Shown: in pieces, positions 28,563 to 35,743 of the stretch
Position numbering within the stretch: the stretch's first letter is position 1
Layout of the letters: each line of letters starts with the position of its first letter
DNA from: an uncultured Ruminiclostridium sp.
GTDB taxonomy: Bacteria; Bacillota; Clostridia; Oscillospirales; Ruminococcaceae
Reading direction: 5' to 3'
DNA: 55,351 nucleotides
Assembly (NCBI GenBank): GCA_905235805.1
Contig: CAJOMV010000023.1
Location: 1 to 55,351 of the forward strand
The notes under the pieces: model-generated
What the model was told of the DNA's origin: nothing
The model's database searches: none
Seen by the model: the letters and a program-made list of their open reading frames with translations, nothing else
Position numbers and translations under genes: made by a program

Positions 28563-28611
28563 CATCTAAATTCAATTTTTTCTCAGATTTTGCAAAAAAA
28601 TTCTGCGGGCA

Positions 28612-28640
28612 TTGACAAATATTATAATATAGTGTATAAT
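28612..28640 (+). promoter_or_regulatory. sigma-A promoter of tRNA-Pro
   Basis: TTGACA (28612-28617), a 17-base spacer and TATAAT (28635-28640), perfect consensus, 31 bases before the tRNA. Confidence 0.88.
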
Positions 28641-28671
28641 ATCAGCACGGCAAAACAGCCAGTTATCATAT

Positions 28672-28747
28672 CGGGGCGTAGCGCAGTTGGTAGCGCGCCT
28701 GCTTTGGGAGCAGGATGTCGTCAGTTCAAATCTGGTCGCCCCGACCA
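28672..28747 (+). tRNA. tRNA-Pro (anticodon UGG)
   Basis: A full cloverleaf of 76 bases. The acceptor stem is CGGGGCG/CGCCCCG with discriminator A and an encoded CCA (28745-28747). The D arm is GCGC..GCGC. The anticodon arm is CCTGC-TTTGGGA-GCAGG with anticodon TGG, and the T arm has TTCAAAT. The terminator about 25 bases downstream lies in the first of four tandem repeat units. Confidence 0.96.
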
Positions 28748-28771
28748 GCGGGGAACGCCCCGCCGCGAATA

Positions 28772-28804
28772 CCGTCTCTTACTTTTAGTAAGGGACGGTT
28801 TTTT
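28772..28804 (+). terminator. tRNA-Pro terminator (repeat unit 1)
   Basis: Arms CCGTCTCTTAC (28772-28782) and GTAAGGGACGG (28788-28798) give 11 pairs including one G-U. They are followed by TTTTTTC. Confidence 0.8.
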
Positions 28805-28879
28805 CTGCCTCGCTGTCCAGAGTTATCAAAAAATCTAAAGCGTTCGACACAGATAGGCGCGGAGCACGCGCTCCCAATA

Positions 28880-28911
28880 CCGTCTGTTGCTTATGTAGCA
28901 GGCGGTTTTTT
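28880..28911 (+). terminator. terminator-like hairpin (repeat unit 2)
   Basis: Arms CCGTCTGTTGC (28880-28890) and GTAGCAGGCGG (28895-28905) pair fully with three G-U pairs. TTTTTTC follows. Confidence 0.7.
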
Positions 28912-28979
28912 CTGCCTCGCAGTCGCGAGAAACATCTAAACCGTTCGGCAGAGACAGCCAGCGTGACGCTGGACCCAAT

Positions 28980-29013
28980 CCCGTCTCGGGCGTACAGCTT
29001 GGGACGGGTTTTC
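28980..29013 (+). terminator. terminator-like hairpin (repeat unit 3)
   Basis: Arms CCCGTCTCGGGC (28980-28991) and GCTTGGGACGGG (28997-29008) give 12 pairs including three G-U. TTTTC follows. Confidence 0.7.
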
Positions 29014-29230
29014 TGAGTCTGTCAGTCAGCCCTCTGTCATCTGCGGTGCCCGGAATAAATCTCTAAAGCGTTAAAACTCTGGACAGCTGCGGGCGCGCGG
29101 CATCAATACCGTTACTTGCTCTCAGTGCGGAGTGTTTTTTCTACCTCGCTGTTCAGAGATATATTTAAAGTGTAAATCCCTGATATCCCAAGTAGTTTTG
29201 ATATAGTGCTTTTTCCTATTTTTCACAAAG

Positions 29231-29263
29231 AATTTTCTGTGAATTTGTTGAAAACAGAAAATT
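29231..29263. promoter_or_regulatory. perfect inverted repeat upstream of the AraC-type regulator
   Basis: AATTTTCTGT (29231-29240) and ACAGAAAATT (29254-29263) are exact reverse complements separated by 13 bases. They end 22 bases before the regulator's -35. A dimeric regulator operator, possibly autoregulatory, is plausible. Because of the AT-rich surroundings, chance or a weak terminator cannot be excluded. Confidence 0.45.
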
Positions 29264-29285
29264 AAGGTGCCATCGTACAAAAGAA

Positions 29286-29314
29286 TTGCCTATATTTATG
29301 ATTTGTGATATAAT
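29286..29314 (+). promoter_or_regulatory. promoter of the AraC-type regulator
   Basis: TTGCCT (29286-29291), a 17-base spacer and TATAAT (29309-29314). The start codon is about 235 bases downstream, so a long AT-rich leader would be transcribed; nothing else is recognised between 29315 and 29549. Confidence 0.6.
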
Positions 29315-35530: not shown

Positions 35531-35559
35531 TTGACAAATCGTGACTGTTGTGTTATAAT
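35531..35559 (+). promoter_or_regulatory. sigma-A promoter of rplJ-rplL
   Basis: TTGACA (35531-35536), a 17-base spacer and TATAAT (35554-35559), perfect consensus, about 185 bases before rplJ. Confidence 0.88.
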
Positions 35560-35565
35560 AATCAC

Positions 35566-35700
35566 GCTGTTCTAAAGACAGCAGGTCATTGCGACGGGAA
35601 TACCCGCCGGAATGCTAACGGGAGACCGCCTGCCGAGGAATGGGAGATAACAGATGAAAATTCCCCGTTCGCTCTATGTCCGAACGGGGATTTTATATTT
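35566..35700 (+). ncRNA. L10 leader with terminator hairpin
   Basis: The gene-free stretch 35415-35743 holds a terminator, the promoter and this leader. The leader contains AAAGACAGCAGGT ... CCGCCTGCCGAGGAAT, matching the conserved core of the ribosomal L10 leader that L10(L12)4 binds to repress rplJ-rplL. Near its 3' end TCCCCGTTCG (35662-35671) and CGAACGGGGA (35681-35690), flanked by AAAA/TTTT, form a hairpin followed by TTTTATATTT. This is a likely attenuator. Confidence 0.82.
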
Positions 35701-35743
35701 CCCCTTTAGTCAGCAAAAAATCTATAAAGGAGGAAAAACCAGA

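Follow-up and report, generated by a model that had tools for sequence, protein, structure and literature searches.

What are the repeated paired elements that stand in series behind a tRNA-Pro gene in this uncultured Ruminiclostridium sp.? The window, by which we mean the whole analysed stretch of 55,351 nucleotides, holds a tRNA-Pro gene whose CCA is directly abutted by the H1 hairpin of the first of four units (Table 1), and an earlier note, made from the sequence alone, had described these as four two-hairpin modules of no recognised family. tRNA trailers are usually viewed as throw-away ends with one simple terminator.

Layout, folding and covariation of the four units

Table 1. Features of the tRNA-Pro locus in window coordinates (H1, short hairpin; H2, long hairpin).
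Feature	Position	Strand	Detail
Predicted promoter of the tRNA unit, TTGACA-17-TATAAT, sigma-70-type	28612..28640	+	consensus match only
tRNA-Pro(TGG), encoded CCA	28672..28747	+	tRNA and Rfam calls
Unit 1 core	28748..28815	+	H1 28748-28763, terminator H2 28771-28799, T-run, CTGCCTCGCTG box
Linker 1	28816..28856	+	TCTAAAGCGTT-like, unstructured
Unit 2 core	28857..28922	+	H1 28857-28871, terminator H2 28879-28906
Linker 2	28923..28957	+	
Unit 3 core	28958..29025	+	H1 28958-28972, terminator H2 28980-29008
Linker 3	29026..29085	+	longest of the three
Unit 4 core, apparently a decayed copy	29086..29151	+	H1 29086-29101 intact; H2 region ~29108-29135 unpaired

The module spans ~100 bp and consists of a GC-rich H1, a CCAAT/CGAAT box, H2 with its T-run, a CTGCCTCGC[T/A]G box and a linker. 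As delimited by the covariance model R1, built from 11 units of the window's own genome, the four cores lie on one strand with an identical order of parts, in agreement with the earlier note; its claim that the same boxes recur in every unit does not extend to unit 3, which has CTGAGTCTG in place of the CTGCCTCGC box. The predicted promoter matches the consensus at 12/12 positions, and tRNA-Pro begins 31 nt downstream of it.

The short hairpins pair in all four units as had been proposed, except that the lowest-energy fold of H1 in unit 2 uses a GCGCG/CGCGC stem and not GGAGC/GCTCC. The two-hairpin description holds for units 1-3, whereas unit 4 retains the short hairpin only. The cores of units 1, 2 and 3 folded with z values of -5.4, -4.6 and -4.2, each beating 200/200 dinucleotide shuffles, while the unit 4 core (z -0.6; 46/200 dinucleotide shuffles equally or more stable) lacks excess stability because its long hairpin is broken. 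Unit 4 looks decayed, and therefore not all four units appear to be maintained. A stable hairpin followed by a T-run is the established form of an intrinsic terminator; units 1-3 have this form and unit 4 does not, and terminator-like hairpins were called in units 1-3 only (3 found vs a mean of 0.8 in shuffles).

The earlier note had taken compensatory changes as a sign of selection on structure and had named paired substitutions beyond chance as the test, and on both points the data bear it out. Among the 11 own-genome units, both-side changes occurred at 9/18 pairs, a level matched by 0/500 shuffles, and covariation was 0.418 compared with 0.202 in shuffled and at most 0.108 in slid controls. 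Larger sets of 112 units (97 distinct; 95.5% of cells pair) and 150 units (125 distinct; 95.3% of cells pair), the latter comprising the genus plus some relatives from other genera and families, gave covariation of 0.637 (0.188 shuffled, ≤0.114 slid) and 0.724 (0.187 shuffled, ≤0.126 slid), values to be read with the bias towards structure of alignments fitted to a covariance model and with the relatedness of units within one array. Both-side changes are saturated in the 150-unit set (18/18 pairs; 79/500 shuffles reach the same) and so not informative there. Both hairpins covary, and the action of selection on structure is supported.

Folding of 40 distinct linkers revealed no structure (mean z -0.21, no value below -2); a third hairpin within the linker, hinted at by the fold of L003, was rejected as a general feature on the same 40 sequences. 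The CTGCCTCGC[T/A]G box behind the T-run is conserved while the linkers differ. A pure terminator needs no conservation behind its T-run, and the terminator alone does not explain this box. Loops and stems differ freely among copies, leaving no conserved exposed seed apart from the boxes. As a separate observation, an exact 13-nt inverted repeat joins 28812-28824, at the end of unit 1, with 29075-29087 in the linker preceding unit 4; its length was reached by 0/100 mononucleotide shuffles of 28748-29170, and we have no explanation for it beyond shared linker pieces.

Copies behind tRNA genes and their history

The window array has dispersed relatives: a BLAST search of its own genome (2.43 Mb, 80.7% complete) led to nine places, and R1 gave 26 matches there at E ≤ 0.05, 16 of these below E 1e-7. 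Over 60 genomes (own included), 19 had an R1 match at E ≤ 0.01 and five, the own genome among them, had more than 20. A broader model, R2, whose underlying alignment includes about three doubtful opposite-strand rows, matched 31/71 genomes of the genus at E ≤ 1e-4, with at least four matches in 21. A scan of genome contigs with too short a pattern gave at least 117 stretches, and R1, run on 23 of them, matched in four (L020, L121, L050 and, weakly, L027).

Position relative to tRNA genes was clearest in the relative G011 (3.8 Mb, 97% complete), where 49 R1 units at E ≤ 0.01 were grouped as 25 arrays: 41 units (19 arrays) stood no more than 400 nt behind a tRNA or shared an array with a unit that did, and 18/25 arrays started 3-5 nt past the RF00005 match, which puts their start no more than 1 nt from the end of the CCA; our own estimate for random placement is ~0.0005 arrays. 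Two further G011 arrays (L243, L244) stand behind apparent tRNA 3' halves, one (L485) directly behind a stop codon, and two (L241, L245) have neither a tRNA 3' half nor a stop codon directly upstream. Another, L242, follows a duplicate tmRNA 3' end that lies ~120 nt past the tmRNA gene itself, the arrangement expected had an integrated element pushed the native trailer away from its gene. In the own genome, 10/26 R1 matches lie ≤400 nt behind a tRNA, and L008 and L138 stand behind tRNA 3' halves. The tRNA or tmRNA 3' remnants before L008, L138, L242, L243 and L244 fit a displacement of native trailers by integrated elements, and such units are possible attachment-site markers.

Copies do occur behind other tRNA genes, as the earlier note had suggested checking. 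Units are directly preceded by 54 tRNA genes of 21 isoacceptors (gap 0 in 46, 1 nt in 8), a table that gives no share of all tRNAs because its loci were chosen for R1/R2 matches, and a lower bound for those loci in that it omits H1 types reusing the A of CCA (L181, L184, L186, L187, the Ser array of L182, and L246). One unit follows 23 of these genes, two follow 12, three follow 13, four follow three, five follow two and six follow one. Counted from the tRNA side, an R1 array stood directly behind 16/32 terminal tRNAs in G011 and 5/23 in the own genome. Reading by eye of 14/16 G011 terminal tRNAs without an array found integrase-like coding sequence behind five (L227, L229, L232, L233, L234) and a degenerate two-hairpin trailer at L235, L236 and L239. 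Among genus loci from the R2 survey, 17/23 examined (L315 and L331 left out) had a same-strand tRNA directly upstream.

As a control, 60 loci were chosen for their tRNA score in 54 genomes where matches were absent or few (G001, G005 and G029, which are weak carriers, among them). These loci contained 3 R2 matches in 173,593 bases, compared with 163 in 188,350 bases of the 70 match-picked loci. By eye, most control tRNAs fit the single-terminator view, their trailers mostly having one ordinary terminator. Automatic flags for H1 plus terminator in the controls (5/23 and 9/34) were mostly a single terminator counted twice, and by eye the two-hairpin layout was present in L156, L157 and L294 only, the first two of which entered the control reading because R1 had found them; at L287, a palindrome abuts CCA without a called terminator. 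One array stands apart from any called tRNA: at L195:470-735 (G007:C154), linker-type sequence and then two units come after what by eye resembles a TTGACA/TATAAT promoter, and no tRNA was called in the interval.

The earlier note had argued against a fresh duplication, and for the window this is upheld: with 87 units compared, no window unit had its nearest relative inside the array, the nearest being L007 for unit 1, L005/L004 for unit 2, L194 of G007 for unit 3 and L002 for unit 4. (These 87 were drawn from the 112 units, excluding L020, L121, L050, L156, L157, L174 and weaker or cut-off rows.) In multi-unit loci of relatives, the nearest relative was within the own locus for 15/27 units in G011, 8/20 in G002, 7/10 in G034 and 0/2 in G007. 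G011 carries one and the same core after tRNAs for Gln, Arg, Gly and Trp, and in G002 one H1 type (13/20 units) occurs with four or more types of H2 and with two types of linker. The number of units per array also differs between genomes, being 1, 1, 1, 3 and 5 for Arg(ACG) and 1, 1, 2, 2, 2 and 3 for Cys. The units are thus mosaics exchanged between loci, in arrays whose length varies by genome.

Copies in other genera and behind stop codons

At E ≤ 1e-5, R2 matched 14/394 genomes of the order (a subset of a larger group), three of which belong to the genus. In five of the other 11, a match immediately follows a tRNA or tmRNA: G361, of another genus in the same family, where this applied to all five fetched loci of seven matches; G115, G282 and G302, with one match each behind a tRNA; and G254, with matches behind both a tRNA and the tmRNA. 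No R2 match directly behind a tRNA or tmRNA was found in G132, G331, G372, G415, G416 or G435. Weak R1 matches in other families (L159, L161, L162, L167, L168, L177) had no tRNA called and are probably due to chance.

Part of the module is distributed more widely. H1 of unit 3 is CCAGCGTGACGCTGG followed by an ACCCAAT box, a form common to other genera and families, and the combined motif CAGCGTGACGCTGSACYC (window 28958-28976) was present in 34/394 genomes and 22/168 genera of the order, with a backward control of 0. With one locus taken from each of 30 genomes, 11/30 motifs started ≤5 nt from an ARAGORN tRNA/tmRNA end; of the remainder, some were behind apparent tRNA 3' remnants and many were away from tRNA. 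G166 has 62 copies of CAGCGTGACGCTGSACYC, and no tRNA was called beside the motif in seven examined loci (L368, L489-L494). G361 has five H1-plus-box copies not directly behind tRNA (L375, L495-L498). The 13-base palindrome with its ACCC(AAT) box is common to many genera and to IMG/VR contigs classed as viral.

Some copies begin exactly at the ends of protein genes. In G011, 4/9 examined loci (L482, L485, L338, L340) have H1 0 nt past a stop codon, behind ORFs of 168, 196, 397 and 355 codons, respectively, and they share an H1 different from CAGCGTGACGCTGSACYC; the module is therefore not confined to tRNA. In IMG/VR (80 loci of 89 stretches), 16/84 distinct motifs start 0 nt past the stop codon of an ORF with 60 or more codons, compared with 1/84 for a control site, and for 64/84 no stop codon of this kind lies within 7 nt. 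The loci of the order gave 2/30 motifs at 0 nt, and in the 11 nt preceding 17 own-genome and 4 G011 places there was no stop codon of an ORF of ≥50 codons. Exact placement of a hairpin at gene ends thus extends beyond tRNA, yet is not the rule.

Two further layouts were observed. At L340 (G011:C1, ~281206-281524), tandem units stand behind a protein gene and their linkers include a copy of its terminal bases, ATCCACAACTGA, a sign that the gene end was probably part of the duplicated segment. In trailers of other genera (L365, L373, L374, L376-L378, L388, L390, L391), which by eye read CAGCGTGACGCTGGACCCAA...TTGGGTTCAGCG-T-run, the short hairpin uses the CA of CCA and shares a CGCTG arm with the terminator hairpin, so that the two are mutually exclusive and attenuator-like.

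Readings of the array and known systems

On balance, we think that the array probably consists of tandem tRNA 3'-trailer modules, each a CCA-abutting hairpin plus an intrinsic terminator, belonging to a lineage within the genus. With the module behind many tRNA genes in related species, and often in tandem, it looks like a lineage-specific tRNA tail and not a relic. Position, structure, covariation, promoter, T-runs, distribution and mosaic make-up are computed observations; in the mechanism that we propose from them, H2 of unit 1 would end the tRNA-Pro transcript, units 2 and 3 may serve as intact back-ups for read-through polymerases with a fail-safe benefit, and unit 4 would be decaying. 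H1 may shield or set the CCA end during 3' maturation. Arrays would lengthen and shorten through unequal recombination, and modules would be exchanged among tRNA loci and kept similar by recombination, an exchange that would give hairpins and linkers of mixed origin. Several results count against the trailer reading: only 10/26 own-genome matches lie close behind a tRNA, 16/32 terminal tRNAs of G011 have no R1 array directly behind them, the CTGCCTCGC box is conserved past the T-run, and copies exist at stop codons and, in G361, off tRNA.

Here a lineage has set a module of two covarying hairpins behind tRNAs of 21 or more isoacceptors, in series of up to six and with copies mixed between loci. 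This raises the questions of why tRNA units would need serial terminators, what effect a CCA-touching hairpin has on 3' maturation, and how short non-coding modules travel between gene ends; the covariance model could aid the annotation of tRNA ends and attachment sites in related Clostridia.

An unlikely alternative is an interspersed repeat, mobile or able to spread by itself, whose target is the exact 3' end of a gene (CCA or stop codon) and which multiplies there in tandem; that its middle part became or stayed a terminator behind tRNA genes, as this account adds, is unlikely to the same degree. Gene-end precision and dispersed degenerate copies are better accounted for in this way than by trailers: the stop-codon starts in G011 and IMG/VR and the spread of CAGCGTGACGCTGSACYC over genera fit it, and by eye the gaps in the own genome hold degenerate copies with the same ends and no H2 pairing, about seven R1 matches being such dispersed copies without a working H2. 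On the other hand, most IMG/VR motifs, nearly all order loci and all 21 of the own-genome and G011 places run counter to a stop-codon rule, the IMG/VR motif comprises the first hairpin and box only and may be unrelated to the module, and gene conversion would likewise make loci similar. No enzyme, target duplication or empty site was identified, and no match was found for the window array in 50,697 phage records or for the array of the relative G077 in 72,556 plasmid records. We regard as quite doubtful the related proposal that the module descends from a mobile gene-end element, either the ~100-bp repeat or a CAGCGTGACGCTG-type first hairpin, which would target the exact final base of genes for insertion, occur across several families and in viral-classed contigs, and have been turned here into tandem tRNA terminator arrays.

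Trailers may also be processed into small regulatory RNAs or sponges, for which rtT and the leuZ trailer of E. coli are examples, tandem copies then raising the dose. Stable covarying hairpins behind a tRNA promoter, and the G007 array at L195 behind its promoter-like sequence with no tRNA called, are compatible with this. The leuZ 3' external transcribed spacer, a sponge, is alike in being a tRNA trailer that has its own function; the base-pairing role is that of leuZ. We nevertheless judge small RNAs improbable, as the free variation of loops and stems leaves only the boxes as conserved exposed seeds, and the T-runs that follow the H2 hairpins would leave later units rarely transcribed. About as improbable, or slightly more so, is a neutral by-product of slippage-duplicated repeats with no function past unit 1: the lost H2 pairing of unit 4 and the identical, apparently fresh copies in G011 agree with it, but the old, divergent units 2 and 3 retain both stems. 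The relic of a lost tRNA array offered by the earlier note is very improbable indeed, since no second tRNA match appeared up to E 5 in 28600-29300, relatives bear tandem units behind intact tRNAs, and the tRNA 3' halves that precede units in the own genome and G011 (L008, L138, L243, L244), which would suit a relic, look like attachment-site remnants of integrated elements, L008 having an integrase-like gene nearby as judged from sequence. The attenuator and recombination-substrate ideas of the same note found no positive evidence within the window.

Set beside known systems, the trailer modules resemble tandem intrinsic terminators in having a GC hairpin plus T-run, three in series behind one tRNA; they differ in adding a second conserved hairpin ahead, which touches CCA in unit 1, and in forming a homologous mosaic family across loci. 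The tyrT tRNA operon of E. coli has a tandem-repeat layout, and its RtT repeat includes a duplicate of the tRNA 3' end. No tRNA 3'-end copy was detected in the units up to E 5 over 28600-29300, a search that a short piece could escape. RtT of the tyrT operon is the nearest precedent: RNA units are released from the tRNA operon transcript (PMC4986893), whereas the present module stands behind tRNAs of 21 isoacceptors and the array had no match to RtT RNA (RF00391) up to E 5. In Methanopyrus kandleri, a palindrome CGTTA(N)9TAACG lies ~10 bp behind about half of the tRNA genes and was proposed by the authors as a 3'-maturation signal (PMC5217627). It is likewise a small palindrome at a fixed distance behind many tRNA genes, but belongs to an archaeon, has another consensus and stands at ~10 bp and not at a gap of 0, and the passages on it mention neither a terminator nor a tandem array (PMC5217627). 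REP/BIME elements are also short extragenic palindromes in many copies (PMC2817692). BIMEs alternate in orientation; the four window units share one strand, and units in fetched arrays, many at gene ends, are co-oriented save for a small number of weak matches on the other strand.

A survey of structured RNAs in microbiomes reports many terminator-like candidates, its passages on these naming none of this kind (PMC8040213), and a paper on variable elements, in its passages on tRNA ends, mentions these only as insertion hot spots (PMC10589994). Among the papers listed on tRNA repeats, terminators, trailers and the 13-base motif, subscription journals being mostly outside this scope, none described the module. 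In line with the earlier note, Rfam 15 gave no family but tRNA at the gathering cut-off in the array, sub-threshold rows lying far under their cut-offs. Elsewhere in the window, a ribosomal protein L10 leader (RF00557) was called at 35554-35705 with a score barely over the cut-off.
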